From Loxodes magnus (Eukaryota > Ciliophora > Karyorelictea > Loxodida > Loxodidae), in assembly GCA_946699065.1 (NCBI GenBank), contig CAMPDV010000151.1:186001-250000 (forward strand): a DNA stretch of 64,000 bases, given 5' to 3'. Made by a program: the position numbers and the translations under genes. Below, in pieces: positions 1,251 through 60,697 of the stretch (positions within the stretch are counted from its first letter, which is position 1; the number at the start of each line of letters is the position of its first letter). The notes under the pieces were generated by a model, which saw only the letters and a program-made list of their open reading frames with translations, ran no database searches and was not told the origin of the DNA.

Positions 1251-2888
1251 ATGTAGTCAGAATTTAACTGTCCTAAATGCAATATTTAGTTCAACTATAA
1301 GGCTAATGTACCTTAGATTCTTCAATGTAGACACAACTTATGTAAAAAATGTTGCTTTGAATTTTATTAAAAACAACAAAAAATAACTTGCCATGTGTAA
1401 AAATGCGGTTAGTAAACTTTAGATGATCTTTTAGATCTTGAAGTTAATAAGGATTTAATAATTAGAATTAATTAAAACACATCAAGTAATTGCAAACATC
1501 ATTCTAGGTAAATCACTTTCTATTGTTTTGATGATTTATAGCTTTTATGTTAGAAATGTATTGAAACTAATTATCATACAAATCATAAAGTTAAAGAAAT
1601 ATTTGAAACTTAATAAGAACTTAAAACTTAAATTCCTTAATATATCTAAAATATAAAAGAGAAGTAAAATATAATATAGAGTAACTGCTAATAAATTTAG
1701 TAAATAAGATAATAAATCATAATAAAAGATTAGGAATTTAAATAGTTTATTTAATAAAAAGCAGAATAAGCTATTGAGTTAATAAACAATAAAAGAAACT
1801 TTTATTACTAGGAACATTAAGAATTAACTGATGAGTTACTAAAAGAGATAGATAAAAGATGTTAGAATTGATAAGAAATTTAAAATAAATTAAGAGAATA
1901 AAATATTCAAGTTTCAAATAATCCTATAGAAGTAATTGAGTTTTAGTAAAAACTATAAGATATTTTAAAATGAGGAGAAGATTAAATATAAGAAAAAGAG
2001 ATATAATAGATAAACTAAATAAAGTTTAATTAATATAATAAAATATAAATAAATTTCTAGATAGATGTTTAGCAGTTTCACAAAGATTTGCAAACTATAA
2101 TTTAAAAAGGAAACTTAAACGAGTTTAAAATTCTTTTATTTGCAGTTAATAATACAAATAGTATAGTGAAATATAACGTTGAAAAAGGAAATTCTGAAAA
2201 AATATAAGTAAATACTTAAATTTTTTCAACTTATTATAGAGCATTATAAATAGCTGAAGATACTTTAGCAGTTACAGGTGGATATGTAAGTAGCACATAT
2301 AGTAATAGAATATCAATAATAAAAGATTCTTAAGTTAAAGAATATTAAATGATTACTTAGAGATATGGTCACAGTTTAGCATTTGATAAACAAAGAAATT
2401 AATTATTTATTGTTTCTGGTTATAATGGTTAATTCTTAAAGGAAAGTGAAGTGTTTAATTTGATTAATTAAAAATCTTAAAAAATAGCTGATATACCAGA
2501 AACTTATTACTTTGGTAGTGCAGTAATATTTAATGATATTTTATATAATTTTGGAGGATCTAATGGTTAAAATTATTTATAAAGTATATAGCAATATGAA
2601 ATAAATAATGATAGATGATCTAAACTATAAATTTAATTACCTCAAGCTTCTTACACTCTTTCAGTCGTTGTTAATAAGTAAATTTATATTTTTGATAATG
2701 CAAGTAGTTTAACGCAAGTAAACATTTTAGAAAATGGAAAATTAACTTAAGTAGGATAAAAATACTAAAAAAATTATGTATCTACAATTCCACTTTGTAA
2801 AAACAACTAAATTTATTTTTACGATGATGGTTTAAAATTATCATTATTCGATGTAAAGAGTTTAAAGTGGGAAAATAAAAATATTTGA
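1251..2888 (+). CDS. TRIM-like RING/B-box/coiled-coil/Kelch protein, copy A
   Basis: 545 aa when TAA and TAG are Gln and internal TGA is Trp. A RING-like zinc finger uses Cys7, Cys10, Cys26, His28, Cys31, Cys34, Cys47 and Cys52; the last pair is spaced by four rather than two. A B-box type 2 finger with exact spacing follows (Cys81, His84, Cys92, Cys100, Cys103, His109, His112). A coiled coil fills about residues 115-280, and the last ~250 residues contain Kelch-like beta-propeller repeats with Gly-Gly pairs and spaced Tyr/Trp. Known proteins of this layout are E3 ubiquitin ligases; that activity is inferred. In-frame TGA occurs at 1,869, 1,971 and 2,616 (Trp 207, 241, 456) and at the presumed stop 2,886. 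The ATG precedes the first RING cysteine by six residues and is shared by all four copies. Confidence 0.85.
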
Positions 2889-3059
2889 AAATAAAATAAA
2901 CGGTCTTAATATAATATTAATCTTAATATTTTTTACATTAATTTACTCATTATATGTATATATTTATATTTTTTTAAATAAAAGTATTTTAATATTATAT
3001 ATATATGTAGATATTTTTAACTTTCAAAAAATTTTAATTTTTCTTAGACTAAAAATTAA

Positions 3060-3720
3060 ATTTATAATTAAGTATAAAAGATAAATTTTCATTGATGCAT
3101 TCAGATACATTTCAAACTCTTCCATCAACCTACAAAGTTTTTCGGAGATTATTTAAAGATTTTATTTTTTTTATCAGATCTTGAATAATTCTCTTGCTTT
3201 ATTTTCTATTTTACAGTATTACTATGTTTTTTCCTAATAATTATACTAGTTTCATTCTAATTTCTCATGTTACTTCTTATATTTTTTCTTAAATTCTTAT
3301 TGTTTTTTCTTATCCTTTGAATAGTAATAACATTTGAATACTAGAAACTACTGAAATTTTGAAATTTTATGAATTGCAATAAAAGCAACTTTTCTTTCAT
3401 AGTTATGTTCTATTAAACTTTATTTTTTTATTTTCCTTCTTTCACTTCTAAAATCTTGCGTTTCATTTTTTTTGCTATTTTCGAACTATCTTCTCTATTC
3501 TTTCAACTTACTCACTGTTTCAAACTATAGTTGATATATTTATTATTTAGCTTTATAAAATTATCTGAGATTCTTTTAAATCTTGTTCCGTAGCATGATT
3601 CTGAATATATTTCTTCATGCTTAGTAAGATTTTCAATTATTTTTCGTTATTCTTCTTAAATCACTTGATCTTTTCTCGTAAGATTACGATATTATATAAA
3701 ATGGTGCCTTAAAACTAACA
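3060..3720 (-). other. Conserved, probably coding block downstream of TRIM copy A
   Basis: This less AT-extreme block is conserved at 26,590-27,240 and, inverted, at 43,350-43,960. On the minus strand, with reassigned stops, two frames give plausible basic, Lys/Gln-rich protein. One reads Met-Lys-Lys-Trp-Ile-Gln and continues open in copies B and C; another contains a conserved stretch Leu-Met-Glu-Glu-Phe-Glu. I could not decide the frame. It would converge on the TRIM-like gene. No family recognised. Confidence 0.35.
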
Positions 3721-3780
3721 AATCTCTCCAGCAAAACCTATTTTTAGTAGGATGAATCCAATTATCTCTACCTTCTTTAG

Positions 3781-4350
3781 ATGGAGAATCAAAATTTGAT
3801 AAAGGCAATTACTGAGTTTTATGAACGAATTTAATAACTAGCCAACACTATGAAAATTCTAAAATCTGAAAACTCAATTTTAAGATAAGAAATAGATCTA
3901 AACTATCCTGTAAATTTAAGGAAGAATCTCATAGAAAGAATATATCGTAAAGAAATTTAAAGCCCTAGAAACTCTAAACCAGAAAAACTATAAAAAATCA
4001 GCTATTCAATGGATATAGAACAAATACCATTAACATAAGAGATTCCATATCAGAAAGTAGTATAAGTTGGTACTGCAAGCAGTCAGAGCATAATGCTAAG
4101 AAATGCTTAAAAGTTTAATAAAAATAAAAGAAAATAATATAAAATAAATGGAAAGATATATTTTAAATATACTGTATAAGTTAAAGCTAGCTTTATCGGA
4201 AAAAAATGCTTTAACTGAACAAATAAGCTCATTATATCTAATAAGCAGTCAATTAAATAGAAAATGAATGGAATTTAACTATCAGAAAAAATTAAGAAGA
4301 ATAATCTTAAAATTTTGAAGATTCATGATAGTGAGACCAAGCAAATTTGA
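3781..4350 (+). CDS. ORF1-like coiled-coil protein with damaged CCHC knuckle, copy A
   Basis: The ATG opens a strong coiled coil (Met-Glu-Asn-Gln-Asn-Leu-Ile-Lys, then about 40 residues). From ATG to TGA at 4,348 the frame is 189 aa, and copies B and C give 190 and 191 aa with TGA at the equivalent place. In another frame near 4,065-4,110 a zinc knuckle is visible (Ser-x2-Cys-x4-His-x4-Cys; copy B keeps the first Cys), followed by a Leu-Tyr-Arg-Lys-Lys motif. Those two features identify the ORF1 family seen at 9.9, 11.3, 21.3 and 57.9 kb. The single-frame ORF may therefore be a frameshifted relic rather than the original protein. Confidence 0.5.
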
Positions 4351-4375
4351 TGTTAACACTTTTTTATAAATAAAT

Positions 4376-4691
4376 AATATTATAGAGAGCATAGCCCGAT
4401 AATGACATATAACTCTTTAATTAAAATCTATTCAATTTTAAAAAAGGTTCTACATTACAGTCTTATCCAGTGCTAGCATTCCTTGGAATATTTTGTCTTC
4501 ATCAGGATCAGTGTCGGAGTGCTGCCCTAAGAAACCTTAGTATCTGGCATCATTTAACAAAACGTTATTTGATGCCTCAGTCTTATCTCGCTTGTCTCCT
4601 GCCGAGATTCTTGCTCCGTTCTTCACATGGAGTATTTCCTGGTAACAGAGTTAAAATCAATCACATTGGAAGGATTTTCCTCTCTATTTAA
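4376..4691 (-). mobile_element. SINE1 element, copy A1
   Basis: About 315 bp, GC-richer than its surroundings, with no convincing protein. Read on the minus strand it starts near AGAGAGG and ends in the shared imperfect hairpin and ATAAT. Related copies lie at 6,027, 14,068, 27,906, 29,489, 42,368 and 63,529. No clear tRNA-like A or B box was found, so the RNA ancestry of the family is unknown. This copy is diverged from the 6,027-6,354 subfamily. Confidence 0.65.
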
Positions 4692-6026
4692 ATTATATAC
4701 AATAAATTAATTTGTTGTAAACTAAACAAAGATAAGATCATAATAATAAATTATGTTATTTTATGTTAGTGATATTTAAATTTTTTTGTCAAACATACCA
4801 ATAAGTTTTAGTACATTCAGAAACCTCTTAGTACAATCATTAATTAATCTATTTTATAGGTTTTAGTTTAGAGTTTGAGTTACAATTAATTTATAGCAGC
4901 CATCTGATTATTTCTAAGATTGTAAGATTTTCAAGTGCATCTACTTATTAGAAATTAATAAAAATCATTTTTATAATACTCGATATCATTTTTTTATTTG
5001 CTATAATAATAAGATAATCATTAATAATCGCTAATATAAAAAAGTTTATTCCAGATAGATAAATTATTTTAAATGATATATATTAAATATAGTAAACAAA
5101 AAATAGTTTATATAAGTTTGATTATTAGAATAATATCTTGCACATTATTTTCTCAGATATCAACTATCATCTTTAAAAAAGATACATTTAGATACTCTAT
5201 TTTATATCCATATATAATAATGGAAGTTATGCTAATTCAAATGTAATAAAAGGGGGATGGTGTTTGAAAAAATTTTCTTAGATTATTAATTTTTTACTAA
5301 CTAATAAATAAAATAATGTAAAATTATAAAGCAAGGAATGGTTGAAAAAGATTTACTATTTGCATAAATTCTTGAATGTTAAGAAAAGATTTCGAAATAA
5401 ATATGATTGCTAAGCATTAAAATATTATTAGTTTAAAAAGGAAATTATTATGTTTTAATGATAACCTCAAGTTTATGCTTTTTTTTACAAGAGAAATTGT
5501 TTCTGCTTATTGAAATTAAAAGAAAAATGTATTTTAAGCTTAAAAAATCTCGAAAAGAAAATTTAAAATATATGTCACTTTAATTTAGCAACGCAAATGG
5601 AATTATACTTTAAAATAATAATGAATAAGTGTATTTTTAAGGCTTTTACGATTAATTTCTATAATTTAAAATAAAATTAACTAATTCAAATTAAAAGCAT
5701 TTTTGGAAAATATAATGTTAAAAATTAATCACTATCAGCGAGCAGATACTCAGATTCCATTGTTTAAAAAAGTTCACTTTCTAAATTAATCATTTTATAT
5801 GCGAGATTCTTCTTTCTTAACTTCTCATTATATGTTAGATAAAAAGTAGTAATAATTCTCCAAATCTTCTTAAAGATTATCGTGTTTTGTCTACAGATTT
5901 TCTTGAAGTTCTACTACAGATATAGTTTTTTTCTTTGGTGCTTGTAAGCTAATTTACATTATTACTTTTCTAATGGAATTTTACATGTATTTTGAGAGCT
6001 GCTTTTATATTTGTTGCAAAATTGAT
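4692..6026. other. AT-rich region between SINE1 copies, copy A
   Basis: Conserved with 28,217-29,488; its first ~320 bases are also inverted at 41,923-42,367. Most of it is very AT-rich. At 5,790-5,990 the minus strand shows a possible coiled coil (Val-Glu-Leu-Gln-Glu-Asn-Leu), but copy B carries frame changes there. Otherwise nothing was recognised. Confidence 0.3.
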
Positions 6027-6360: not shown

Positions 6361-6880
6361 ATAAATAAATAAATAAATTTGATTATAGAGCGCGTAGCAC
6401 TCTCGTTGGTGCGCAGCTCTTTAAAAAAAAATGTTTAATACTGACAAGAATGTTTGTTACTGATAAAATTATCAGATACTGGTGGACCTTGTTCAATACT
6501 GGTATAATTATTCAGTACTGATAAAAATGTTCAATACTGATATAATTTTAGAATACTCGTAATCTTTAATACTTGCTGGAGGTCCAAGGACATGGCAGGA
6601 TTGTGTCTCATTACATCACCAAAGCAGAGGACGACATGTGTCAATTATGGGTACTTAAATTCCCCACCTCTGATGAAGCTCGCAATATTATTTCTTTTTC
6701 GTTCCAGTATTAAAAATAAACGAAACCAAGTCAAGCCAACTTCGAAGGCCTAAGAATCTTATGTCTCGAGGTCAAACCAAAGCAAAGAAGACATAAAGTC
6801 GATTATGGGTACTTAACTTCCCCAACCTCTGATGAAGACGACCTTGTTGTTCACCTTCCAACAACTATGGCGGTTTTAAA
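6361..6880 (-). mobile_element. SINE3 element with internal duplication, copy A
   Basis: On the minus strand it begins AAAACCGCCATAGTTGTT and ends with a near-perfect copy of the shared hairpin (GAGCTGCGCACC...GTGCTACGCGCTC) and an ATTTATTTATTT tail. Several short units ending in CAGTAC/ATTGAA form the 3' third. An internal segment around GGGTACTTAA and CATCAGAGG is present twice. Copy B has an empty site here; AAAATAT flanks both ends as a likely target-site duplication. Confidence 0.75.
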
Positions 6881-9300: not shown

Positions 9301-9861
9301 GCTTAAATGGAAGATGCAAAACATTTTTTATTACCTATATAAAATATGGTAAAAACATGTTAAACTTTAATTAATTAAGAATTTCTATCAAGTTTTCATT
9401 AAGAGTTATTATTTTTTAATTAGAAGAAATGTGTGCTATTGCAATAAAAAACGAGAAAAATAATGTGAAAAAACAAAATTCATAATAATTCGTAGAATGT
9501 TAATAAATAGTAAAAAGAAGAAAAAACAAATAAATAAAAAATAGAATATAAATAAAAATAGTTAATTAAAAGCAAAAATAAATAAAATAAATTTTCAAGA
9601 AAGTATCTTATTAAAAAATTTAAATAAAGATCATAAAAACTTTATATATATAATTTTAATTAAACCCTCTAAACGTAAGAATAAACACTAAAACGATTTT
9701 AAAACCTCATGATAAACTACTTTTTATATTCTTTAGTTATAATTTTTAGATAAGAACTTGTAAGCAGCTTTTCTTGAAAAAGATTTAAAATCGATAATTT
9801 GTTCTACAAAATATTTAAAAGCTTAATTCTGTAGATTAAATTAAATTAAAGTGTTAAAAAA
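9301..9861. other. AT-rich flank and partial satellite unit, copy A
   Basis: Contains the first part of a satellite unit (from 9,628) that recurs at 12,231, 13,021, 33,747 and 34,492. The unit is interrupted near 9,845 by the ORF1-only elements that follow. No gene. Confidence 0.5.
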
Positions 9862-10753
9862 GGATCGTCTACTTAAGAGCTTCCTACTTCCCTATCCAAC
9901 CAATAGGAACTTGATCTCTAGGTGGTCTTCTCCTCCCTTCACTGTCAAGTTTTCGGAATGGTTGTCTCTTCATATAGCTTGCTTTCTTCTTATAAATTTC
10001 TCCACTCCTGGTTGGGTAAAATTAGGTTAGGTCATTCCATATTTTCTATTAAATCTTCTTTCTCTTCCAGCATCGTCTCCATAGGTGGTCTGTTCTCCTG
10101 CAGATGTAACATTTTTTCCTAAAATATTTCTCTTTAGTTTGTTCAATTGGCTTATTATTCTCTTATTCGATCTCCATTGGGGTCAATTGCATAGCCAATT
10201 ATTTTACACTTGTCTCTAATTTTTCCAATTTGATATGAATATTTTCATTCGATTCGTATAATTGTTCTAGCTGCCTATCGAATTCGTCAATTCTGATATT
10301 CATTGCAGCCTGGTTTAAGTTTCTAGGAGCATGGGTTTCCTCATCTTCTAAATGCTCTTGCTGTTCTTAAGCTAGATCTTCAATCTGTTTTTCCAGGTCT
10401 TTATTTTTTCCTATTAATGCTAAGATAAGCTTAGCCATTTCCTCCTTCGTCATTCCTAAGATTTGTTCTTTATTGAGATCTCCGAGGTCCATGTAGGGGT
10501 TGAATGTCCTAATCTAGGCCTGAAAGTTACTAATCTTTTGCTTCTTGGGAAGGTCCTCAGTCGATATTGTTGCATGTTAGTGTTTCTAGGGTTGTCTGGG
10601 GTGTTGTTTAGAGTTGCTCCTATATGGTTTAAGAAGAAGGTTAGGTTTTGGAAGTTGAAGTGTGATGTTTAGAAATTTAGGTTTCCTGCTTCCTCTCTTC
10701 CTTTTTAGCTTAGAAAGAGGTGGTATAGAAGCCTTTTTGAAACCTTCTACCAT
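9862..10753 (-). CDS. ORF1 zinc-knuckle protein of an ORF1-only retroelement (best-preserved copy)
   Basis: Reads about 295 aa in one frame from ATG at 10,753, with Gln for TAA/TAG and no TGA. Order: a basic Pro-rich N-terminus (Lys-Arg-Lys-Arg and similar), a coiled coil (about 95-215), a CCHC knuckle Cys-Tyr-Ile-Cys-x4-His-Leu-Trp-Arg-Arg-Cys (TGG at 10,079), then Tyr-Pro-Thr-Arg-Ser-Gly-Glu-Ile-Tyr-Lys-Lys-Lys and a basic Arg/Pro tail. This layout is that of a nucleic-acid-binding ORF1 protein of non-LTR elements. No TGA stop follows closely, so the C-terminal end is uncertain. No reverse transcriptase is attached. It is less AT-rich than its surroundings. Confidence 0.7.
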
Positions 10754-11282
10754 ATTTTTTTTAATATTCTTTGAAAAACTATAATATAAAAGATTAAATC
10801 AGTCTTTAAAAGAATTTCATCGAGTTTTTTTTAAGAGTCTTGATTTTTTTACAAAAAAATGTGTGATATTTTAAAAAAATAAATAAGAAAACAATATTGA
10901 AAATAATATTTTAAGAATAGATAAAAAAGAAATATTTAAAGAAAGTATTTAAAATACCTTAAAAATTATAAATAACTGGAAAATGCGAAAAAGTACAAAG
11001 TAAATTTTTATAAAATTTAATATATGCTTATTAATATAAATTCCGCAATAATTAAAAATTAAAGGAACATTTCTTTTTTGAAAAAAATAAGAAATTGAAT
11101 TTTTAAAACAAAATAAATAAAAGAAAAAAATATAGCAAGTAAAAAAATATTCAAAATAGAAAGCAAAAAAAGGTGAAATAAACAAAAAAATAAAAAATGA
11201 AAAAAAAGCAAGCTAAATTTATTTGAAAAAAAATCATACATAAAAAATGCCCAAGATCTAAGATCATATAAAAAATTAACAA
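10754..11282. other. AT-rich spacer between two divergent ORF1-only elements
   Basis: Extremely AT-rich, lies between the 5' ends of the divergent elements at 9,862 and 11,283. It may contain both 5' UTRs. Nothing recognisable; standard-code ORFs here are poly-Phe/Lys composition artefacts. Confidence 0.3.
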
Positions 11283-12224
11283 ATGGAGGCTTCAAAAAAA
11301 GTTTCTACACCACCTCCAAGAAGGAGAGGAAACCAGAAGCCATTCTCAGCCAGTCTTCTTTTACTTAACCCTAACCTTTTTCTTAATAATCCGGAACATA
11401 GGTTCAAGAAGAACAGAAGTAATCTAAGAAAATCACCCATGCAATCATCCCAACGTCTCAGGAGAAATCCAGAAAGCACAAGTCTGCTTTGCACCAGGAG
11501 GTATCAGAATTTAATCCTTCTGGCCAGATGAGCATGGAATAGCTCATCAAAGTAGTACTAAATCTCCAGGAAGAGATCAAGAAGATAAAGAAGGACAATG
11601 AGAAGCTAATGCAACAGTTTAACCTAGTAGAAGGAATAGAATCAAGACTCATGTCCATAGAGAACTAAGCGCTTTTTGGAACATATCAAAAGATCAGAGT
11701 AGCTAATCCCAAAATTAGCTTCAGAAACAGACAGAACTGGACAATAGACTTGAAAAAATAGAAGAGAAATTTGCAACGACAAATAGAGTAAAATGAGCAA
11801 AGAAGCGACCCAATGGTGATTGAGAAGGAAGAAACAAGAAAACCTAAAAGAATTCAAAAAAGAATTCAAAAAAGATGTTATTATTGTAATTCGGGAGAAC
11901 ATTTATGAAGAAGATGCAAGAAATTCCTAAGTTTCAAGAATTAATACTGAACAAAGCAAAGAAAACTACAAGCGCAATAAAGGAAAAACATCAACTGCAA
12001 TAGAGAAGAGATAGAGAAAGACTTTATATGAATGAGCTTGGCAAGATCTACAGAAAGAAATCAGAATAGAATGAAAGATGAAACCGAAGACAATATAATC
12101 AAGTGAGAGAGGGGATATAAAATTTTTAAACATTTTTATATAATCCCGGAGCAACCCGGCGATCGGCAGGAAGAGGTGAAATTCCTCCAAGATTGCCAAA
12201 CTTAATTTTATTATTATTATTATT
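11283..12224 (+). mobile_element. ORF1-only retroelement with CCHC knuckle and (TTA)n tail
   Basis: The ATG at 11,283 opens a basic, Pro-rich N-terminus. A frame change between about 11,400 and 11,450 leads to the main frame: Asn-Pro-Ser-Gly-Gln-Met-Ser-Met-Glu-Gln-Leu-Ile-Lys, a coiled coil, and the knuckle Cys-Tyr-Tyr-Cys-x4-His-Leu-[TGA]-Arg-Arg-Cys (11,876-11,917). The TGA at 11,906 aligns with TGG in the sister element at 10,079. After another frame change comes Gly-Lys-Ile-Tyr-Arg-Lys-Lys (12,040). The 3' UTR (12,140-12,205) has short hairpins such as GAGG...CCTC, followed by a TTA repeat at 12,207-12,224. No RT. Decayed by at least two indels. Confidence 0.72.
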
Positions 12225-13423: not shown

Positions 13424-16400
13424 TCATCCTTTATTTCTTTTTCTTTTTCTATTAATTATTTTCTTCTTGACATAAGTTTCTAATGAAGAATTTTTATTTA
13501 TAAAGCTAAGGATTTCAAATAAGACTTCTGAAAGGAGTATATAAATTCTTTAACATAATATAAAAAATGTCTTAAATCATAATTCTCAATCTTTTATATC
13601 AGAATAGTATATAGGTTTAAAAATGTGCTCGAACGTATCATACTCTCCACACATACAGTAAGGATTATAAATATAATGGTGACAATCTTAAAGATCTTTT
13701 AGAAATCAATAGTATTGGGTTCTAAGTTTATATATACTGATAATTTCTTGTCTAGTTCTTTGTTCAATTTATCGTAAGTAATTACTGGAAATTTGGTTAA
13801 GATTACTAAACTACTCAGTATATGTTTTAGCTATTTTCATCCTCTTATACTTTTGAGTATCTGTATTATAGAAATACTGTCATATTTTGTCTCTTATATA
13901 TTTAGTAAAATTTTTTTAATTTGTACTAATCTTAGAATTCTACAGGTTGATACTATAGAGGTCTGATAATTGCTGAATTTGATTATAGCATTGAAATTCC
14001 TTTTTCCAGTTGGTATTGAAAAGAGAGCCTATTGTCGATCTTTGAAAATAAATGGCTTCTTATAAATAGGGAGGAGCAATACTTCAACAGACATTGACTT
14101 AAGGTATAGTATCAGGAAATACCCAAGGGAGAAGAACCGAACAAGAATCTTGGTAGGAGCCAAGAGAAAAACAAAGACTAAAAAGACATCAAGTGGCATT
14201 ATTGATGAAAGATGACAGATACTAAGGTCTCTTAGGGAGCATTCCAGTCACGCCCTATAGAAAATGAGACTCACAAAGTATGTTAGCACTGTGGAAGACT
14301 TCAGATTAAAAAGAATTTTGATTTTAAAAATCTTATTAAAGAGCTGCGCACCATTGAGGGGCTACGCGCTCTCTAATCTTGTTTATTTATTTCATTTTAT
14401 AGTAGAATCTGAAGAAACTTATAACCATAATGTGCTTAAAAAATAATAAATTCAGGCCTATATAGCATGATTCATTTAATGTTAAATTGCTACTTAAAAA
14501 GCTTTTCTTGAAATCAATCTCATACTTGATTCAATTCTGTTCAGAACTCCATTTACTCCTTTTTGAATACTTCTAAGTTTCCTCCATATTCTAATGTAAA
14601 AAGCCTTTATAAAGGTTTAAATGCCAAGAAGTTATATTCTTATATCTCATCAGTTAAAAAAACATCTTTCTTCATTGCAGCTATATATTTGAATGCGACT
14701 TCTTTGTAATAGGGATTAAAATTCTTCTTCTGATGTAGAATAACTCCTAAATATGTTACTTGTTCTTTTTAAACAATCGACTAATTTCCAAATCATAAAT
14801 TTAAGATTTATTGCTTCTGTTTTTCTTTAGGAATTAGATACTTTCAGATTTGGTAACATTAATCTTTAAATGAGTTCATGCAAAAACTTTAATTGTTTCA
14901 TTTATTAGATTATACATATACTTTGCAGTTCTGGAAAGAAGAATCAAATCAAATGTCCGTCCTCTGCAAGCAAAAATAACATTCAAGCCTTGGCATTTGA
15001 ATCTTGATTGGGTACTTTTACTTTCCAAATATCTAATTACAATTTCATAATACAACAAGGCTAAAATTGGTCTATGTGGACTTCCTTACATAACCATTGT
15101 TGTACTATAATGTTCTAGTTTTCATTTCATCTATTAGAAATGAAGAGTTTAGGTTTTAATAAAATGATTCCAAGGCTTTTATTAGTCCAAGTGGTAGTTT
15201 TACTCTCTTAAGCTAATCAAATAAAAATCTTCTTTCTATTGAGTCAAACATTTTTTCAATATCTATCAATGTTGCAATCAATTTAGTTTTCCCTTTTGCC
15301 TATTTCCGATAGTTATCAATTATCTATTATATCACTCAAATCTATTAAGTAGTTTATCTATTTTCATGAATCCCATTTGAGAAGGGTGAATCAAATTTCT
15401 CTAATAAATTAGATTGTAAAGTCTTTTTGCACAAGCTTTATCATATAGCTTTAGAATAGTATTAATAAGAGAAATAGGTCTTCAGTTTTTCCAATCATCT
15501 TTGTTTCCTTTTTAAATATTGAAATTATTACTGAAGTATTTAATTCTTAAGGAATTCTTCCCAGTCTTAACATATTATTTAGAAATGAGTGAACAATTAT
15601 AGCAAATATCATCCACCATATTTCAAAATTTCACTTTTTATTCCATCTGAAACAGCTGCTTTTCCATTAAGAATTTACTTTTGATTTCTTAATAAAAGTT
15701 CATATTATTTCTCTCCATAGGATTTAGAATTTTCTTAGCTTGTTAAAAGATTTCCTTAGAATCTTCATTAAGAAGTAGAAATCTATTTTTTGCTTTTTAA
15801 TTTTCACAGATCACACTTGAAGTGTTTCGAAAGTAGTTTCACTGTCTCATGAAGATTAGATAGTTGTTAGTTTATTCTTGGAAATTTAATGTGAGCTTGC
15901 TTATATTCTGAATTAGCTCTTTTTGCCTATATATATTTGTTTGTGAGTCTGGAATAAACGAAGCTAATGTTTAATATTGTCTTGTTACTTTTGATGGATT
16001 CATATTAATCTTCAAGATTATCTTAATCTATCTAACAGAATTCTAGATAAGTTTGTAGATTCTTAATATTTTTGCCTATCTATTGCATCTTATAACCTAT
16101 TAATTTTATATTTTCTCATAGTTATCTTTTCCCAATAGACTATAGAATTATTGATAAAGTCGACAGTGATTGGAATATGATCAGAAAATAAACTATTATT
16201 ATGAGCAGTTTATTTGCAAACTAATTAAGTTCAAATGGTTGTTTATAATGATATAATCATTACAATACATTTTTCCTGTTCCTTTGTGTATACATGTATT
16301 AATGTTACTATCATTCACTATCTCAAGATCATTTTATAATCAAAATTCTTATAGCCTATTGGTATTATCATAAGTATTTTCAGGATTGTCTCCGAAACCT

Positions 16401-16911: not shown

Positions 16912-16929
16912 GTTCAGGATGTTAATGAA

Positions 16930-19592: not shown

Positions 19593-19800
19593 CTGTCTGT
19601 GCTTTTCCTATGAATTTGTAGCTTCTTTGGAATTAATTAAAGAAGAATCACTATTAAAAACTAGTGAATTCTATATTTCGTCCATTTGTCCATATTATTC
19701 TATCATTTTTCTAGTTCATCATTTCATTCTAGATTTAAATTCTTCTTCTAATAGTTTCTAGTGAGAGCTTTTTATTCTAAATCCTATTTCTTATTTTAAC

Positions 19801-23390: not shown

Positions 23391-23450
23391 GCTAAACTAA
23401 TTGTAAATCTTTTTATGATAGAGCTATTTATTAAATATTATTAATAAAAT

Positions 23451-24773: not shown

Positions 24774-26410
24774 ATGTAGTCAGAATTTAACTGTCCTAAA
24801 TGCAACATTTAGTTCAATTTAAAGGCTAACTAACCTTAGATTCTTCAATGTAGACATAACTTGTGTAAAAAATGTTGCTTTTAGTTGTTTTAAAAATAAC
24901 AAAAAATAACTTGCCATGTATAAAACTGCGGTCAGTAAACTTTAGATGATCCTTTTGATCTTGAAGTTAATTATGATTTATTATCTAGAATTAAATAAAA
25001 TGCAACAAGTAATTGCAAACATCATTCAAGGTAAATTACTTGCTACTGTTTTGATGATTTATAACTTTTATGTTAGAAATGTATTGAAACTAATCCTCAT
25101 ACAAATCATAAAGTTAAAGAAATATTTGAAGCTTAATAAGAACTTAAAACTTAAATTCCTTAATATATCTAAAATATAAAAGAGAAGTAAAATATAATAT
25201 AGAGTAACTGTTAATAAATTTAGTAAATAAGATAATAAATCATAATAAAAGATTAGGAATTTAAATAGTTTATTTAATAAGAAGCAGAATAAGCTATTGA
25301 GTTAATAAACAATAAAAGAAACTTTTACTACTAGGAACATTAAGAACTAACTGATGAGTTATTAAAATAGATAGATAAAAGATGTTAGAATTGATAAGAA
25401 ATTTAAAATAAATTAAGAGAATAAAATGTATAACTTTCAAATAATCCTATAGAAGTAATTGAGTTTTAGTAAAAACTATAAGATATTTTAAAATGAGGAG
25501 AAGATTAAATATAAGAAAAAGAGATATAATAGATAAACTAAATAAAGTTTAATGAATATAATAAAATATAAATAAATTTCTAGATAGATGTTCAACAATT
25601 TCACAAAGATTTACAAACTATAATTGTAAAAAGAAACTTAAATGAGTTTAAAACTCTTTTATTTGCAGTTATTAATACAAATAGCATAGTGAAATATAAC
25701 GTTGAAAAAGGAACTACTGAAAAAATATAAGTAAATGCTTAAAGTTTTTCAAATTATTATAGAGCATTATAAATAGCTGAAGATACTTTAGTAGTTACAG
25801 GAGGATATATAAATAGTTAAGTTTGTAATAGAATATCGATAATAAAAGATACTAAAGTTTAAGAATATGAAATGATTATTTTAAGAAGAGGTCACAGTTT
25901 AGCATTTAATAAATAAAGAAATTAACTATTTATTATTTCTGGTTATAATAATTAATACATAAAGGAAAGTGAAATGTTTAATTTGAAAACTTTAAAATCT
26001 TAAAAAATAGCTGATATACCAGAATCTTCTTACTTTGGTAGTGCAGTAATATTTAGTGATATTTTATATAATTTTGGAGGATATAATGCGTCAGGTTACC
26101 TACAGAGTATATAGCAATATGAAATAAATAATGATAGATGAACTAAACTATAAGTTTAATTACCTTAAGCTTCTTACACTCTTTCAGTTGTTGCTAATAA
26201 GTAAATTTATATTTTTGATAACGTAAGTAGTTTAACGCAAGTAAACATTTTAGAAAATGGAAAATTAACTTAAGTAGGATAAAAATACTTAAGTAATTAT
26301 GTATCTACAATTCCACTTTGTATAAAAGAAAAAATTTATTTTCACGATGATAGTTCCAAATTATCATTATTCAATGTGAAGAGTTTATAGTGGAGAGTAA
26401 AAGCATTTGA
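24774..26410 (+). CDS. TRIM-like RING/B-box/coiled-coil/Kelch protein, copy B (late frameshift)
   Basis: Second copy of the gene at 1,251, aligned end to end. RING, B-box, coiled coil and Kelch region are all present, and the three internal TGA codons are conserved (second at 25,494, third at 26,139). One base is missing near 26,394 in the last ten codons, where copies A, C and D read Trp followed by the terminal TGA. The final residues are therefore out of frame and the normal TGA (26,408) is bypassed. The loss is so late that the propeller may be nearly intact. It lies in both the direct repeat and the left inverted arm. Confidence 0.82.
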
Positions 26411-26589
26411 AAAACTAAAATAAACAATCTTAATATAATTTTAATCTTCAGTTTTTTTGTATTAATTTACTCATTATATGTATATATATTATTTTATTTT
26501 ATTTTTTATAAAAGTATTTAAATATTATATATATGTAGATACTTTTATCTTTCAAAAAATTTCAATTTTTCTTAGACTAAAAATTAATT

Positions 26590-31856: not shown

Positions 31857-33430
31857 AGAAATAACGTTCGATACCATTAATAGGGATTTGCTATTTGGAC
31901 ATTTACGTAGAATTAAGTTCCCTCTTGCTCTAATAAATTGTCTTGATTCATTTTATTCACATCTAAACGTTAGATTTCTTTTGGATGGAACATTATCGAG
32001 AAATTTGAATTATACCAATGATGGTTTACAAGGAAGTTCTCATGTTCAGTTCTCGTCATTATCTTCTCTGGCATCATAATTAGATATTTGGAAAATTTTT
32101 AAAAGCAACTTGGTTTTAAAATTTGTGGACGTTTATTTGTTTCCAAAGCTTGGGCAGAGGACTTATTATTGCTATCTAATGAAGATAATATGAATTCATT
32201 AATTTAGGCCACATGTGAAGCATTTGGTTGGGTTGAATTGACAATAAACGCTGAAAAATGTGAATATATCTGCTTTAAAAGTATTTAACAAATTTAAATA
32301 TCACAATTTGTCTCCTTCTAGGATATGTTATTAATGAAAATTAAAACTATAAAGCTCATTGTTAAGAAGTTTCAATGAAGTACAAAAAATTTGCGAGTGG
32401 GTCTATTTAAAAGTTATCTAAATATCAAATTATTACTCCTTAGAACTTTAAATTAATTTTTCGAACATTTATACTACCGAAAGTAAAGTATGGGTCAGAA
32501 ATAATTCCTTGGGCTATTCTTCGGGGTATAAAAAAATAACATGATATAACCACTAGCTAAAGAAAAGTAGCAAGATGTGTTTTACAAAGCCCTAATTCAA
32601 CTTTTATGGAATCTAGCTTTATTGACTTGAATTGATTACCTTTTGAATATTACATTACAATGAGGTTCTTCAAATTCTATATAAAATCTTACACTGAATC
32701 TAAAACGGATCCCAACTCTGATGTAGCATTTCTTTTTAACAAAGGAAAGAACAATAACCTTAAATATTTCAAGAATCTAAAATATATGACTTAACATTTT
32801 CAAATAAACCTTTAAGATGCTAGTAGCATCAAATAATATTTAAACAAAATTAGAAATAAATTAGAATAAAAGCTTTATTAAGATGCAATAGAAAGGATGA
32901 GTACGATGCCTACTACATGCATTTATTTTGATTAATAAGATAATACCATTGATTAACAGAATTTTCCAATTATACTTACACGATATTAAACAAGACAATG
33001 ATTCGAGAAATAGTATCAATTTACAAATTAAGGACTTTTAGTTACAATTTTTTGTATGATTTGAAATAAAGACACTATTAAATAAAACACTCTGAAATTT
33101 ACATTTGCGGAGAATAAGATAACTATTAACATATTTCTTAATGTGAAGTTCTGCAAGATTTAATAGAAGAATTTAAAGATTTCAGGAATTACGATTCACT
33201 TAAACTTATAACTTAAAACCAATATTACATTAATCTAAACTTCCCTACTCGAAAATAACTTTAATAAATTGACTAAAGGATTAAATACTTTCATTCAAAG
33301 TTGTTTCGCTGAAGAAATTAAATTGTAGATCAAAATGATGAACAAGTGTAAGAGATATTGGAACAATTTGGTTAGTGAGCAAGCGAAAAAAAAGATTATA
33401 GAAAATTGAATCAAGATTGCTTAAATGGAA
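31857..33430 (+). pseudogene. 5'-truncated non-LTR reverse transcriptase, copy B
   Basis: Counterpart of 7,735-9,300. An ORF1-only element is inserted exactly at its 5' end, splitting it from its flank. The catalytic box reads Trp-Ala-Glu-Asp (32,151-32,162): the first catalytic Asp is Glu, so the enzyme is probably dead. At 32,633 a TGA stands for the Trp of Ile-Asp-Leu-Asn-Trp-Leu-Pro, written TGG in LINE-3. The C-terminal zinc-finger-like segment is present near 33,105. Confidence 0.8.
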
Positions 33431-38999: not shown

Positions 39000-41923
39000 A
39001 ATCTAATATTTCCACCAGCACCCTGAGTATAAAAAAGAACTTGTACATATTTAAAGAGATTCATAAGGGACTAAAATATATTTGCATATATTAGGGAGGG
39101 CTCCTGGTGGAGCCCAAGAATCTAAGAAAATAAAAATAGGACATGTAAATATAAGTTCAATAGCTAGTAAACAGGTGGCATTATAATAATTCATCCTTGA
39201 TAATTAATTTGACATTTTTCAATAAACGAAATATGAACGTAATAAACATATTGCTCAATTGTTATAGAATAATATCGTACCTATTACTAAAACACAAATA
39301 ATCGTGCAGGCGGAGTATGTCTATTAGTAAAAAAGTAGCTTGATTCTTGTTAAAATGAATTAGATTTCTCAAATCTTCCTGGACATTTTATAAGCGTGAG
39401 AGTTGGAAATTTAATAATAGCATCATGTTATTTGCCTACAAATGAAAAGTCAAATATTTGTAAGGACATTGCATATGAATACCTTAATAATATCATAAAT
39501 AATAGCGACTAGAATCCTACTATCCTTTGTGGCAACTTTAATGCCTTACTTCTTAACTACGGTAATAACTCATGACAAAATAAATAATAATACTTAAATA
39601 TTACTAGACTTTATAGAAGCAAATGAATTAATAATTTTAAATGATAATGAGTTCAACACACTTATTCATAGAGCGAATAATTAAGGCTATTGTAATGACT
39701 ACTTCTTGGCAACTTAACATTTAAATTCTGATGATTTCGTTGATTATAAAGTTATCCAAGATTCGGGTTTGTATACTGATCATTTTCCATTAAGTGTTAC
39801 ATTAAATTATAATTTAAAAAGAAGTGAATAAGATTAGCAATAACGATTACTCTTTAAAATTTCTAAACTATAGGATTTGGAAACGAGAAACTATTATTAA
39901 AATCTATTTTTGGGATAATTTTATCAATTCTAGTAACTTAATTAAAACGATGTTGAAAATTAGTACTAATTCATCTGCGATCTTATTAGTTATAATGCTG
40001 AGATTGCACTTGGATCTTAAAATAAAAGAAAAAACTATTATCAATTGCCAAGTTACTTAGCTACGTTATTTGCTCAAGCAAAAAAGGATAATATTACATA
40101 TTAGGACGCATTAGCTTTGTATGAACGTTATAATTAAGAAGTTTCCAAACTTAACTAGCTTAAAATTTAATCTTATAAGAGTTATCTTCACAAATTTTGG
40201 AAATGAAAAAAATAAAAAGCTAAGGAAAAACATAAAGATCTTAACAAAAATGCTTAAATAATGTTTGAACAAGTTAAAAACCTGATAAACCCTAAAATGC
40301 GTAATTAGATGAATTTTAATTTTAACTAACAACAGCAATTTATTGAAAATTGGGAAACTAACGTTTTTGATAAACATTCGAAAATAAGTAAGATAGATTT
40401 TGACTTCTCAAATAGAAAAATAGAGGGAATATTTAGAAATAAATCTTTTACCTTAAATTAGAAATTAAGTCATTTATAAAATATGCCTCTTTTTACGTGA
40501 TTTGAAATTAAAAAAATTATATCTTAGCTTGCAAATAATAAAGCTACATGTAATGATGGTCTAAAAGCTGAACTTATTAAATATGGAAGTTAAGATTTGC
40601 ATCAAATTATTACAAGTTTCATTAATAACATGCTTAGAACATTTAAAATACCTAATGCAATGAAAAAAATAAACATTCTTCCGATTTTCAAAAAAGGAAG
40701 CAAAAGTAATTGATGTAATTGACGAACTATAGCTTTATTGAACTGTCTACTTAAAATTTATGATAAAGCACTAACATAACGACTTTATAATTATATTTAT
40801 GAACAAAACATTTTACGTCCATCCTAATTTGGATTTATTCGTAAACGCTCCACTACTTATTAAATTTGAACAATTTAGTAAATTATAGACTTACATCGTA
40901 GATGGTCCCATAAAAAGTAATTAATTGCTACTTTAATAGATGTAGAAAAAATGTTTGATAGCATATCTAGGAAATTACTTTTTGATCATATTAGAAGACT
41001 TAGGCTACCTTTGGACCTAATATTGGCACTAGAATCTTTTTACGATAATGTTGATACTAAGTTTATAATTGATGGATATATTACAAGAATAATTAAATAT
41101 AACAATGGAGTATTATAAGGAAGTAGCCATGCACCTGTACTTGCAATTTTATACTATGATATTGTTATCAGATATTTAGAAGATAATCAGAAGAAATTAG
41201 GATTTCAAATATTATCTAAAACTTTCGTAGTACGAGCCTTCGCTGACGACTTAATCCAAGTGTCTTCTTCCTAGAAAAATGCCTACAAATTATTACAAGC
41301 TACATCTACATTTTTGATTGAGTAAAATTTACAATTAATGTAGCCAAATGTGAAGTAATAGAATTCTTGAAAAAAAATAAATAAAAAGAAAGCTAACCTT
41401 CTATTAATATAAAGCTCAATGGGATTCCAATTGCTTAAAAAGATGAAGTTACCTATTTAGGATATTAGTTAGGAATAAAATAAAATTACAAATTACATTG
41501 TACAGCAGTAGCTACCAAATACAGAGTAGCTATTTAAAAAGCTACTGTAATACTTTCTAAATATGGATTAGTATCCCCTCTCAACTTCAAAACTCTTTTT
41601 AGAACTTTTATTTTGCCTAAGGTTGAATATGGAAGTGATATTACTCCGTGAGCTACTATTTCTGGAATTAAAGGAATAAAAAACAAGATAACAAAATCGT
41701 AAAGACTTATCTTAAGATAGGCGTTTAGATCTTAAGAATTCACATTCAATGAGTCATGCTTTATTGACCTAAACTGGCTTCCTTTTACACATATAGCAAC
41801 TAAAAATTTAATGCACTTTTATTAAAAATTAATGTAGTATATCAAAGAAAATCCTAACTCAGATACTGCTTTCCTATTAGAAAAGTGCACTAAATTTAAT
41901 TTACCATACTAGAAACATATTAA
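39000..41923 (+). pseudogene. LINE-3 ORF2: APE endonuclease and reverse transcriptase, C-terminus missing
   Basis: APE motifs: Gly-His-Val-Asn-Ile-Ser (39,137), Gly-Gly-Val-Cys-Leu-Leu (39,309), Ser-Cys-Tyr-Leu-Pro, Gly-Asn-Phe-Asn-Ala (39,533; the usual catalytic Asp of GDFNA is Asn), Thr-Asp-His-Phe-Pro (39,778). RT: Asn-[TGA]-Arg-Thr-Ile-Ala-Leu-Leu-Asn (40,717), Asp-Val-Glu-Lys-Met-Phe-Asp, Leu-Gln-Gly-Ser-Ser-His-Ala-Pro, Phe-Ala-Asp-Asp (41,239-41,250, intact), Ile-Asp-Leu-Asn-Trp(TGG)-Leu-Pro (41,775). APE is frameshifted near 39,290. The end is cut by the arm junction. The start codon is not determined. Confidence 0.78.
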
Positions 41924-53300: not shown

Positions 53301-53576
53301 CCACCAGCAAAACGTATGAGTAAACATAATAATAAAAAAGAGCGTGATTAAATAATATGTCAATCTAACTGGTCTATAACTTTAAACATTTATTAAATCA
53401 GAAACTTGAAGACGTCCATAGTATGAAATGTATATAAGGTAGATATGTCACAGTTACTTAAGATTTAGAATAAGGTACATGTGATAGTGTGAAAAGTAAA
53501 ATTGATATAGATAGAAAGCGTAAGTAATATATATTTTGATACAATATTTTCATTAACATCCTGAACATGGAAAAAG

Positions 53577-56500
53577 ATTAGTACACATTTAGATTAACCA
53601 ATAAGGATAAAAGAGTATCTGCATTTACGAAAGTGGACTACCTGCAGGAAAAAATTAGAAAGGACTAATAAATTTAAAAAATAAAGATGGGACATATAAA
53701 TATTAATGGAATAGCGTGAATATTGAAGAATTTATCAGAGATAATAGTATAGATATTTTATCAATAAACCTGATAAAAAGAAGACTTTCCTCCAATATTG
53801 ATAAATGGATTTAAAACATATTTTAAGAACTCAGGAAAAGGAGGAGGTGTATGCCTAATTGTAGGAGATGAACTTAATAGTACAGAAATACATAAGTTGA
53901 AAAAGAAATGATTCATAACAATTAAACTGGATAATATTTTAATCACATCTTGTTACATGCCTGATAGCGGAAAAAGTTAAGATGTTAAAGATTTAGCGTA
54001 TGAACAACTAAATACATTGCTGAATTAATATAATGATACATATACTGATGGGAGATTTCAATGCTCTTTTATAAGGTTTCGGAGACAATCCTGAAAATAC
54101 TTATGATAATACCAATAGGCTATAAGAATTTTGATTATAAAATGATCTTGAGATAGTGAATGATAGTAACATTAATACATGTATACACAAAGGAACAGGA
54201 AAAATGTATTGTAATGATTATATCATTATAAACAACCATTTGAACTTAATTAGTTTGCAAATAAACTGCTCATAATAATACTTTATTTTCTGATCATATT
54301 CCAATCACTGTCGACTTTATCTATAATTCTATAGTCTATTGGGAAAAGATAACTCAGAGAAAATATAAAATTAATAGATTATAAGATGCAATAGATAGGC
54401 AAAAATATTAAGAATCTACAAACTTATCTAGAATTCTGTTAGATAGATTAAGATAATCTTGAAGATTAATATGAATCCATCAAAAGTAACAAGACAATAT
54501 TAAATATTAGCTTCGTTTATTCCAGACTCAAATTATAACAAACTTCCTCGAGCTCTCACAAAGAAATATATAGAGGCAAAAAGAGTTAACTCAGAATATA
54601 AGGAAGCTCACATAAAATTTGGAAGAATAAACTAGCAAGTAACTAATCTTCATGAGGCAGCAAAACGACTTTGGAAAGACTTCAAGTATAATCTATGAAA
54701 ATTTAAAAAAACCAAGCAAAAAAGAAGTTTCTACTTCTTAGTGGAGATTCTAAGGAAATTTTTTCACAAGTTAAGAAAATTCTAAATCCTTTGAAGAGAA
54801 ATACTATGAACTTTAATTAAGAAATCAAAAATAAATTAATTGAATCATGAGAAAATTGTGTTTTTAACGAGCATTCTAATCTAACTCAAGAATAGATAAA
54901 TCTTAGTAATTAAAAAATAGATAAAATATACGATAATATTTAAGAAATTAAAGATTATCCACTCTCGTATTTGTAAGGAGTTGATCTTTTTACCATAAAA
55001 GAAATATAAGAAATTATAAAATAAATTCCGAATGGAAAAGCAGCTGATCCAGATGGAATAAAAGTCGAACTTCTGAAATATGGTTGATAATATTTATTAA
55101 TAATTCTTCATTCTTTTCTGAATAATATGCTAAGACTTGGAAGAATCCCTTAGGAATTAAATATATCGGTGATAATTCCAATATTTAAAAAAGGAAATAA
55201 AGATGATTGGAAAAACTGACTACCTATTTCTCTTATTAATACTATTCTAAAACTATATGATAAAGCTTTAACAAAAAGACTATACAATCTGATTTATTAG
55301 AGAAATTTGATTCACCCTTCATAAATGGGATTTATGAAAAACAGATAAACAACTTAATAAATTTGAATAATATAACAAATAATTGATAACTATCGGAAAT
55401 GTGCTAAAGGTAAGACTAAATTGATAGCAACATTGATAGACATTGAAAAAATATTTGACTCAATAGAAAGAAGACTCTTGTTTGACTAACTTAAGAGAGT
55501 TAAATTACCACTTGGAATAATAATAGCCTTAGAATCGTTTTATAAAAACCTAAATTTCTTTTATCATAGATGGTAAGAGCACCAGAACTTTATAATTCAA
55601 CAATGGAGTTATGTAAGGAAGTTCTCATGGACCAGTTTTAGCATTATTGTATTATGACATAGTAATTAGATATCTGGAAAGTAAAAGTAACTAATTGGGA
55701 TTTAAATGCCATGATTCAAGTATTAGCTTCGCTTGTAGAGGATGGGCAGATGATCTTATTCTTCTTTCCAAATCTGCAAAGTAGATGTAGAATTTAATAA
55801 ATGAAGCAAATAAAGTTTTTGCATGAACACATTTAAAGATTAATGTTACCAAATCCGAATTCATCTAATTTCTAAAGAAGAATCAGAAATAATAAATTTT
55901 AAATTTATAATTAGGAAATTAACCAATTGCTTAAAAAGAACAAGTAACATATTTAGGAGTTATTCTACATTAGAAGAAGAACTTAAATCCCCATTGCAAA
56001 GAAGTTGCATTTAAATATATAGCTGCAATGAAGAAAGCTGTTTTTTAACTGATGAGATATAAGAATGTAACTCCTTGACATTTTAAAACTTTATGTAGAC
56101 TTTTTACATTACCTAAAGCAGAATATGGAGGAGACTTAGTACCATGAAGTATTCAAAAAGGAGTAACTGGAATTTTGAACAGAAAAGAATCAAGCATGAG
56201 ATTAATTTCAAGAAAAGCTTTTTAAGTAGCAACTTCAACATTTAATGAATCATGTTATATAGCCTGAATTGATTACCCTTTAAGCACATTATGGCTATAA
56301 AATTCTTCAGATTCTACCATAAAATTAAATAAGAAAGTACTGATTTTCCAAGATCAACAATAGGCTCTCTTTTCATTAATATATGGAAAAAAGGATTTCA
56401 ATACTACGATTAAGAGTAGCAATTATCAGGCCTTTATAATATCGATCTGCAGAATTAATAGAATAATAGCAATCTTAAAACTTTTACTAAACATGTAAGA

Positions 56501-57031
56501 GAAAAAATACAACAATATTTCTACAAAGTAGCTACTAAAAAATTTATGAGAATGAAAACAGCTAAAGTATATACTGAATAATTTGGTAATCTTTAACAAT
56601 TTCCACAAATTACTTATACTAAATTAAACAAATAGTATAGACGAGAAATTATCAGTATATATAAACTTAGAACCTAAACTTATAATTTCCGTAAGGATCT
56701 TTAAGATCGTCATTACCCCATTGATAATCCCTATTGTATGTGTGGAGAGTATGAAACTTTCGAGCATATCTTTAAATGTGTGTACTATTCTAATATAATG
56801 AATTGATTATCGGAAAATATCGGAAATTATGACTTAAGGCGCCTTATACTATACGATCAAGAATATCTAAACTCATTTTCAAGGTCTAAATTGGAGTATT
56901 TAGACTTATAGATCAAAATATTTCATAAGAAGCTAATGACAAGGAGACTTGAGATTCTAGAAATGGAGAAAGCAAAAAAGGAAGAAGCTAAAGATGAATA
57001 GAAAGAAGAACTAATTAAAGAAAAATGATGA
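53577..57031 (+). pseudogene. LINE-R ORF2: APE endonuclease, reverse transcriptase, Cys/His segment
   Basis: APE motifs in order: Asn-Ile-Asn-Gly (53,706), Gly-Gly-Val-Cys-Leu, Ser-Cys-Tyr-Met-Pro, Met-Gly-Asp-Phe-Asn-Ala (54,040), Asn-Asp-Tyr-Ile, Ser-Asp-His-Ile-Pro (54,290). RT motifs: Asn-[TGA]-Leu-Pro-Ile-Ser-Leu-Ile-Asn (55,214), Asp-Ile-Glu-Lys-x-Phe-Asp, Gln-Gly-Ser-Ser-His-Gly-Pro, Gly-Trp-Ala-Asp-Asp (55,740-55,754), Tyr-Leu-Gly. The C-terminus has Cys-Met-Cys-Gly-x7-His-x3-Cys-like spacing (56,735). A 4-bp deletion near 53,728 and other indels break the APE frame, so it is probably inactive, although the RT region is well preserved. Tandem TGA TGA at 57,026-57,031 is the likely stop. 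Confidence 0.8.
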
Positions 57032-58892: not shown

Positions 58893-59059
58893 ATAATGTC
58901 AGATGATTTAATATAAAAATTTATTATTTATGATATATAAAAGAAATTTATATTTATGGTTTAACTTCTATTTACCTTTTCTTTGAGTGAAAAAAAAAAC
59001 TAAATTATAAGTTATTATAGAATTTATTATTTTTATATTAAAGTAAAATAAAAAAAATA

Positions 59060-60697
59060 ATGTAGTCAGAATTTAACTGTCCTAAATGCAATATCTAGTT
59101 CAACTCAAAGGCTAATGTACCTTAAATTCTTCAATGTAGACATAACTTGTGTAAAAAATGTTGCTTTGAATTGTTTTAAAAATAACAAAAAATTACTTGT
59201 CATGTATAAAACTGTGGCCAGTAAACTTTGGATGATCTTTTAGATCTTGAAGTTAATAATGATTTAATAAATAGAATGAAATAAAATACAACAAGTAATT
59301 GTAAAATTCATTCAAGGTAAATCACTTGCTACTGTTTTGATGATTCATAGCTTTTATGTTAGAAATGTATTGAAACTAATCCTCATACAAATCATAAAGT
59401 TAAAGAAATATTTGAAGCTTAATAAGAACTTAAAACTTAAATTCCTTAATATATCTAAAATATAAAAGAGAAGTAAAATATAATATAGAGTAACTGTTAA
59501 TAAATTTAGTAAATAAGATAATAAATCATAATAAAAGATTAGGAATTTAAATAGTTTATTTAATAAGAAGCAGAATAAGCTATTGAGTTAATAAACAATA
59601 AAAGAAACTTTTACTACTAGGAACATTAAGAATTAACTGATGAGTTATTAAAAGAGATAGATAAAAGATGTTAGAATTGATAAGAAATTTAAAATAAATT
59701 AAGAGAATAAAATATTCAAGTTTCAAATAATCCTATAGAAGTAATTGAGCTTTAGTAAAAACTATAAGATATTTTAAAATGAGGAGAAGATTAAATATAA
59801 TAAAAAGAGATATAATAGATAAACTAAATAAAGTTTAATGAATATAATAAAATATAAATAAACTTCTAGATAGATGTTCAACAATTTCACAAAGATTTGC
59901 AAAGTATAATTTAAAGTAGAAACTTAAGTGAGTTTAAAACTCTTTTATTTGCAGTTGATAATACAAATAATATAGTGAAATATAACGTTGAAAAAGGAAC
60001 TTCTGAAAAAATATAAGTAAATACTTAAATTTTTTCAACTTATTATAGAGCATTATAAATAGCAGAAGATATTTTAGTAGTTACAGGAGGATATGTAAAT
60101 AACACATTTAGTAATAGAGTATCACTTATTAAAGATACTTAAGTTTAAGAATATCAAATGATTTCTTACAGATATGGTCACAGTTTAGCATTTGATAAAC
60201 AAAGAAATTAACTATTTATTATTTCTGGTTATAATGTTCAACATCTAAAGTAAAGTGAAATGTTTAATTTGAAAACTTTAAAATCTTAAAAAATAGCTGA
60301 TAATCCAGAATCTTCTTACTTTGGTAGTGCAGTAATATTTAATGATATTTTATATAATTTTGTAGGAAATAATGATTCAGGATATTCGTAGAGTATAATG
60401 CAATATGAAATAAATAATGATAGATGATCTAAACTATAAATTTAATTACCTCAAGCTTCTTATACTCTTTCAGTTGTTGTTAATAAATAAATTTATATTT
60501 TTGATAATGCAAGCTAGTTAACACAAGTAAACATTTTAGAAAATGGAAAATTAACTTAAGTAGGATAAAAATACTAAAAAGGCTATGTTTATACAATTCC
60601 ACTTTTTATAAAAGATAAAATATATTTTTACGATGTAAGTTCAAAATTATCAGTATTCGATGTGAAGAGTTTATAGTGGGAGAGTAAAAGCATTTGA
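59060..60697 (+). CDS. TRIM-like RING/B-box/coiled-coil/Kelch protein, copy D
   Basis: Fourth copy, again exactly 1,638 bases. The RING and B-box ligands are intact and the B-box spacing matches copy A. Internal TGA codons sit at the conserved positions. Sequence similarity to the other copies stops soon after the terminal TGA, unlike A, B and C, which stay alike for several kilobases downstream. That makes 60,695-60,697 the best-supported stop. Its upstream region is split by an ORF1-only retroelement at 57,484-58,892, so its promoter may be displaced. Confidence 0.84.

Follow-up and report, generated by a model that had tools for sequence, protein, structure and literature searches.

In a 64-kb stretch of DNA (hereafter the window, GC 24%), whose content points to a nuclear protist genome and most likely to a ciliate, genes very probably follow a code in which UAA and UAG specify glutamine and UGA specifies tryptophan, while a UGA near the 3' end of the mRNA still terminates translation, as in NCBI table 27. 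The evidence comes from four copies (A-D) of a gene for a RING/B-box/Kelch ('TRIM') protein and from elements resembling long interspersed nuclear elements (LINEs); both support the assignment of TAA/TAG to Gln and of TGA to Trp as well as to termination, as the initial annotation of the window had proposed.

A RING/B-box/Kelch gene family with conserved TGA codons

The four copies of the gene are located as follows:

Copy A: 1251-2888, plus strand; in-frame TGA (Trp) at 1869, 1971 and 2616; terminal TGA at 2886
Copy B: 24774..26410, plus strand; in-frame TGA at 25392, 25494 and 26139; the end coordinate is an out-of-frame TGA
Copy C: 45766-44129, minus strand; in-frame TGA at 45148, 45046 and 44401; terminal TGA at 44131
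Copy D: 59060-60697, plus strand; in-frame TGA at 59678, 59780 and 60425; terminal TGA at 60695

The internal TGAs occupy codons 207, 241 and 456 in all four copies, and a terminal TGA occupies codon 546 in three of the four (A, C and D), which bears out the description in the initial annotation of three conserved TGAs and a common TGA end; in copy B, the loss of 1 nt some 5-6 codons upstream shifts the terminal TGA out of frame. The product of copy A matches the B-box (4.3e-8) and Kelch (1.6e-15) families of Pfam, and its N-terminal RING-like match falls below the Pfam cut-off (0.033). The copies diverge from each other by about 8-9%, and the gene has a GC content of 21-22%. Codons 1-538 of the four copies together comprise 192 TAA, 66 TAG, 38 CAA, 5 CAG and 12 TGA, but no TGG; the remaining invariant Trp of the gene, codon 540, is written TGG.

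The open reading frame (ORF) differs sharply from its flanks in its tolerance of insertions and deletions (indels). Between copies A and C, it has 124 substitutions and no indels (16.9 expected from the substitutions), versus 337 substitutions and 46 indels in the flanks; between A and B, it has 136 substitutions and one indel (16.0 expected), versus 400 and 47. The indels expected past codon 207 number 11.3 (A-C) and 11.0 (A-B). The ORF at 1251-2888 nearly coincides with the longest blocks free of indels, 1227-2891 in A-C and 1190-2869 in A-B; the block in the blastn alignment of A with D is shorter (1227-2704), and the four-way MAFFT alignment is gap-free over codons 1-538. The ratio of nonsynonymous to synonymous substitution rates (dN/dS), computed with the substitution spectrum of the flanks, is 0.27 (0.15-0.43) before codon 207 and 0.57 (0.42-0.73) in frame over codons 208-538, where the two other frames give 1.10 and 1.43. 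For codons 457-538 the in-frame ratio is 0.56 (0.34-0.95), and the other two frames range from 1.06 to 1.43 over the segments 208-538 and 457-538. Were codon 207 a stop, the 1 kb beyond it would not be translated and would be expected to accumulate changes as the flanks do, and no such drift is seen. Conservation of the TGAs alone is weak evidence because the copies have common ancestry. Since all copies have them, the TGAs are, on the simplest reading, older than the divergence used to measure selection. The pattern of substitutions and indels indicates that they are more than products of decay.

A structure model built from the four copies (mean predicted local distance difference test score, pLDDT, 42; best block of ten 78) has strands from approximately residue 330 to residue 543, a region that needs the first two TGAs to be read through and includes the third. 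For the C-terminal half, which is weakly modelled, solved Kelch propellers are the top PDB matches (Foldseek E 3.5e-11, TM score 0.59 by target).

The central part of the gene (1500-2000 in copy A, with its equivalents in B-D) differs from copy A by only approximately 2-5%, compared with 6-14% in neighbouring 250-nt bins, which may reflect either stronger constraint or gene conversion. No homologues of the protein were found at E<=1e-5 among 6642 candidates. An exact 36-nt pattern had no matches in genomic and viral contig collections, and scans for related loci gave 45 and 10 pattern matches, none of which was confirmed, the genome of the window itself possibly being excluded from these collections.

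Residues specified by TGA, TAA and TAG

When ten of the twenty residues were tried at TGA in profile scoring, Trp gave the top score in five of six Kelch profiles compared, namely PF24681 (57.4 bits versus at most 52.1 for other residues), Kelch_1 (31.6 versus 27.1), Kelch_3, Kelch_4 and Kelch_6, and also in the RVT_1 profile of reverse transcriptase (85.0 bits), with Tyr second at 84.1. Codon 456 aligns to position 39 of the Kelch_1 profile, which we take to be the conserved Trp of the Pfam consensus.

With TAA and TAG (TAR) read as Gln, RVT_1 scores 85.0 bits, at least 6.1 bits above each of six other residues (78.9 or less), and among eight residues tried in the gene family, Gln yields the lowest dN/dS (0.46; others 0.49-0.56). 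In 37 variable codon columns that contain TAA or TAG, CAA or CAG also occurs in 13, GAA or GAG in 6, and AAA or AAG in 5, two columns being counted twice. The scores of PF24681 are 57.4 for Gln, 57.6 for Lys, 51.4 for Glu and 43.8 for Tyr. The code of Blastocrithidia has UAR as Glu and UGA as Trp. Glu was rejected on RVT_1 (77.1 versus 85.0 for Gln) and PF24681 (51.4 versus 57.4), although not unanimously, with Kelch_1, Kelch_4, Kelch_6 and PF24981 favouring Glu by 0.5 to 3.2 bits.

Termination at TGA

Indels between copies resume approximately 3 nt past codon 546, and the 120 nt that follow this codon have a GC content of 9-11%. Codons 521-545 contain neither TAA nor TGA, and TAG is present there in B, C and D (three of four copies). 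This pattern weakly fits, in a single gene family, the karyorelict Loxodes magnus, in which UGA and UAA but not UAG are depleted over approximately 20 codons before the stop (PMC11441545). The other well-defined gene end in the window is the tandem TGA TGA at 57026, which closes ORF2 of the LINER element; of TAA, TAG and TGA, only TAG occurs in the 70 codons before it, so that LINER too shows the depletion. Both well-defined ends (codon 546 in A, C and D, and LINER 57026) are thus TGA; TGA at 9258, the candidate end of the L4a element, is weaker. Close to the apparent end of one CCHC-type ORF1, TAG codons are present and an early TGA is absent. Judged by the best-defined ends, UGA is also a terminator.

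LINE-like and CCHC elements

Decayed non-LTR (long terminal repeat) retroelements contribute the following features:

LINE3 reverse transcriptase: 39979..41380, plus strand; RVT_1 E 7.7e-24 with TGA read as Trp; TGA at 40720 in an N-W motif
LINER ORF2, frameshifted copy: 54665..57031, plus strand; TGA at 55217; tandem TGA TGA end at 57026
Second LINER copy, decayed, 85% identical: 14387..15691, minus strand
L4b ORF2 segment: 32537..32791, plus strand; FIDLN-TGA-LPF at 32633, with the paralogous FIDLN-TGG-LPF at 41775 in LINE3
CCHC-type ORF1: 9860..10800, minus strand; knuckle TGG at 10079-10081, CYICRRTDHLWRRC
CCHC-type ORF1 relative: 11279..12150, plus strand; knuckle TGA at 11906, CYYCNSGEHL-TGA-RRC

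All six of the Trp-motif codons named in the initial annotation (10,079; 11,906; 55,217; 40,720; 32,633; 41,775) proved exact. The knuckle TGG (10079-10081) and TGA (11906) both lie inside a CX2CX4HX4C motif, and the reverse transcriptase motifs are KN-TGA-LPISL at 55217 and CN-TGA-RTIALL at 40720. RVT_1 was detected by Pfam in a short piece at 39.7-41.5 kb (E 2.7e-23) and, split over two frames, at 54.5-55.9 kb. Thirteen homologous reverse transcriptase proteins were found, of which two have names (one from Anolis, one hypothetical protein) and none names a ciliate.

In six element copies of four lineages, 42 aligned codon pairs include a TGA, which is paired with TGG in 12, TGA in 11, TAG in 3 and other codons in 16; the count omits the close pairs LINER1-LINER2 and L4a-L4b as well as alignments that lack a third-position excess, and its pairs are not independent of each other. 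Ten chosen Trp columns of the LINEs, collapsed by lineage, comprise 16 TGA, 9 TGG and 2 TAG. These were entered by hand from the codon-pair alignment; to be included, a column had to show Trp in two or more lineages, and the Trp codon was taken wherever the two copies of a lineage differ. A mixed column (TGA, TAG, TAG, TGT, CTC), a Gln-like column (CAA, TGG, TAG) and all columns whose Trp is confined to one lineage were left out, a selection that somewhat favours TGA and TGG over TAG. Across the repeats of the window, changes of TGG yield TGA and TAG in a ratio of 67:46 (all repeat pairs, in all registers, coding stretches included), from which the 16 TGA of 18 in the LINE columns differ with P = 0.007. 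To judge from these columns, TGA probably stood for Trp in the elements while they were alive. The LINE copies are broken by frameshifts, for which reason they alone would be weaker evidence, and codon-phase bias is slight among recent duplicates.

Alternative explanations

Under a code of the Tetrahymena type (table 6: UAR as Gln, UGA as stop), the in-frame TGAs would be decay mutations, an alternative that the initial annotation itself had raised, and the repeats that carry them would be dead germline sequence. A GC content near 24% would suit Tetrahymena; the frameshifts and scant codon-phase bias of the LINE copies agree with decay, and the change of TGG to TGA is common in the repeats of the window (opposite TGG stand 37 TGA and 23 TAG, with 310 TGG kept). 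The RING/B-box/Kelch frame contradicts this explanation, remaining under selection and almost free of indels past the three shared TGAs, and UGA as a stop alone was rejected by the dN/dS and indel tests on this gene. For the LINEs, decay is disfavoured by the ratio of TGA to TAG at Trp columns (16:2 by lineage versus 67:46 repeat-wide), and the germline genome of T. thermophila is reported to have retrotransposons only infrequently (PMC5182062). Altogether, a table 6 code is very improbable. About as improbable is the removal of the internal TGAs as short in-frame introns. Codon 207 does lie within GTTAGAATTGATAAG (1861-1875), a 15-nt GT-AG interval conserved in four copies, with 36-nt and 60-nt intervals also possible, and heterotrich introns are 15-16 nt long (PMC11441545). 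Among intervals of 15-60 nt, however, no conserved GT-AG interval with a length divisible by three spans codon 241, and none whatever spans codon 456, the Kelch Trp, so that introns were rejected within this range for both codons, codon 207 excepted; moreover, Trp positions of the LINE and CCHC elements alternate between TGG and TGA.

A Condylostoma-type code (table 28), in which TAA and TAG, like TGA, can terminate near the mRNA end, has identical sense meanings and is the less remote alternative, but still an unlikely one. Few gene ends are visible, and the CCHC-type ORF1 with TAG codons and no early TGA at its apparent end would suit such a code, whereas the best-defined ends, at codon 546 in A, C and D and at LINER 57026, are TGA, as is the weaker L4a end at 9258. 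Elsewhere UGA has meanings other than Trp, such as Cys in Euplotes and selenocysteine in selenoproteins. That UGA here specifies another residue (Cys, Arg or selenocysteine) is extremely improbable, since RVT_1 and most Kelch profiles prefer Trp to the nine other residues tried (Tyr being close in RVT_1 and tied in PF24981) and with TGA alternating with TGG at homologous sites.

Several observations weigh against the table 27 assignment. The four copies share ancestry, so their TGAs amount to three sites rather than twelve; codon 207, in its 15-nt GT...AG stretch, could belong to a tiny intron; and the structure model is of low quality (mean pLDDT 42). PF24981 scores 35.0 for Trp and Tyr alike. 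The readings of TAR are distinguished only weakly by dN/dS (0.46 for Gln, 0.49 for Glu and Ser), and the Kelch profiles disagree: PF24681 does not separate Lys from Gln (57.6 versus 57.4), Glu or Lys outscores Gln in Kelch_4, Kelch_6 and PF24981, and Kelch_1 gives Glu a slight advantage. In L4a, the candidate final TGA is preceded by a TGA at a distance of 22 codons and a TAA at a distance of 9, contrary to the published depletion, and the GC content of the gene (21-22%) is below the published value for coding sequence of L. magnus (33.5%).

Organization of the window

The window is a patchwork of segmental duplications, between and within which the decayed retroelements and the four gene copies sit:

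Segmental duplication, 5.0-5.7 kb: 95-5742, 23613-29271 and 46916-41921 (minus strand)
Inverted duplication, 13 kb, 92% identity: 15672-28660 / 54837-41921

The inverted duplication contains blocks of 99% identity (16763-19009 / 51469-53715), which suggest later gene conversion or a partly recent event. A segment of approximately 312 nt (6366-6677 / 30019-30329), which occurs in opposite orientations in the two L4-type regions at 96% identity, carries short tandem arrays with units of 18-19 and 38-39 nt. Downstream of the L4-type regions are several copies of a short repeat of about 160-480 nt (12230-13311, 33738-34945), possibly like a short interspersed nuclear element or the 3' end of an element.

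Within the 64-kb window, no rRNA or other Rfam family was found at gathering scores, nor any tRNA by ARAGORN. Pfam scans, some of which used frames of 4,400-5,000 residues, partly covered the six frames of the window, and negatives from the long frames are unreliable, one such scan having missed the RVT_1 that was detected in a short piece. A codon-usage scan trained on the reverse transcriptase recovered its own two seed segments and nothing else.

Comparison with known codes

Table 27 fits best, and codes of this kind are already known from several ciliates: in karyorelicts, Condylostoma and Plagiopyla, the three stop codons are all reported to have sense, with dual meaning (PMC11687900, PMC10553269). 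The window resembles the karyorelicts (Loxodes, Parduczia) in having UAR as Gln and UGA as Trp or stop, and L. magnus in particular both in codons 521-545, which lack TAA and TGA and have TAG in three of four copies, and in a LINE-rich genome with RVT_1 (PMC11441545). It differs from table 27 systems in that most Trp codons of the sampled ORFs are TGA and in that L4a lacks the depletion; sense UGA is rare in Parduczia (0.120% of codons, PMC4967479). Condylostoma magnum (table 28) likewise has three stop codons that are also sense, with identical residues (PMC4967479), but it terminates at UAA and UAG too, whereas the two best-defined ends here are TGA, and its UGA usage is 0.042% of codons (PMC4967479), compared with 12 in 4 x 545 codons here. 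Plagiopyla frontata is similar in its UAR as Gln and its UGA predicted as both Trp and stop, but its internal UGA is rare, in 3 of 240 proteins (PMC10553269). Tetrahymena and Paramecium (table 6) also have UAR as Gln and UGA as stop; unlike here, UGA has no sense meaning in them.

The sense meanings, and a TGA that ends a constrained ORF, come from the sequence; the machinery proposed is drawn from the literature. Gln suppressor tRNAs would read UAR, and a near-cognate or altered tRNA-Trp(CCA), of which a form with a 4-bp anticodon stem is described (PMC13092985), would read internal UGA; eRF1 would terminate at a UGA near a short 3' untranslated region and poly(A) tail, in keeping with the poly(A) proximity and the competition of eRF1 with tRNA discussed in PMC4967479.

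The TGA share of Trp codons is three of four in the gene and 16 of 25 (TGA plus TGG) at the chosen LINE columns by lineage. This high share is the one unusual quantity in a code that is itself established. There is a small chance that the window belongs to an undescribed lineage whose ambiguous code uses UGA for most Trp codons and still as the terminator, and whose LINEs also write Trp as UGA.

Standard gene callers would cut such genes short. Raw genomic DNA alone, without transcripts, can reveal a stop codon that is sense inside a selected gene and a stop at its end, and duplicated genes provide a clean test of a sense codon through indels and dN/dS across it. The LINE-like elements suggest that resident retroelements use the ambiguous code of their host.

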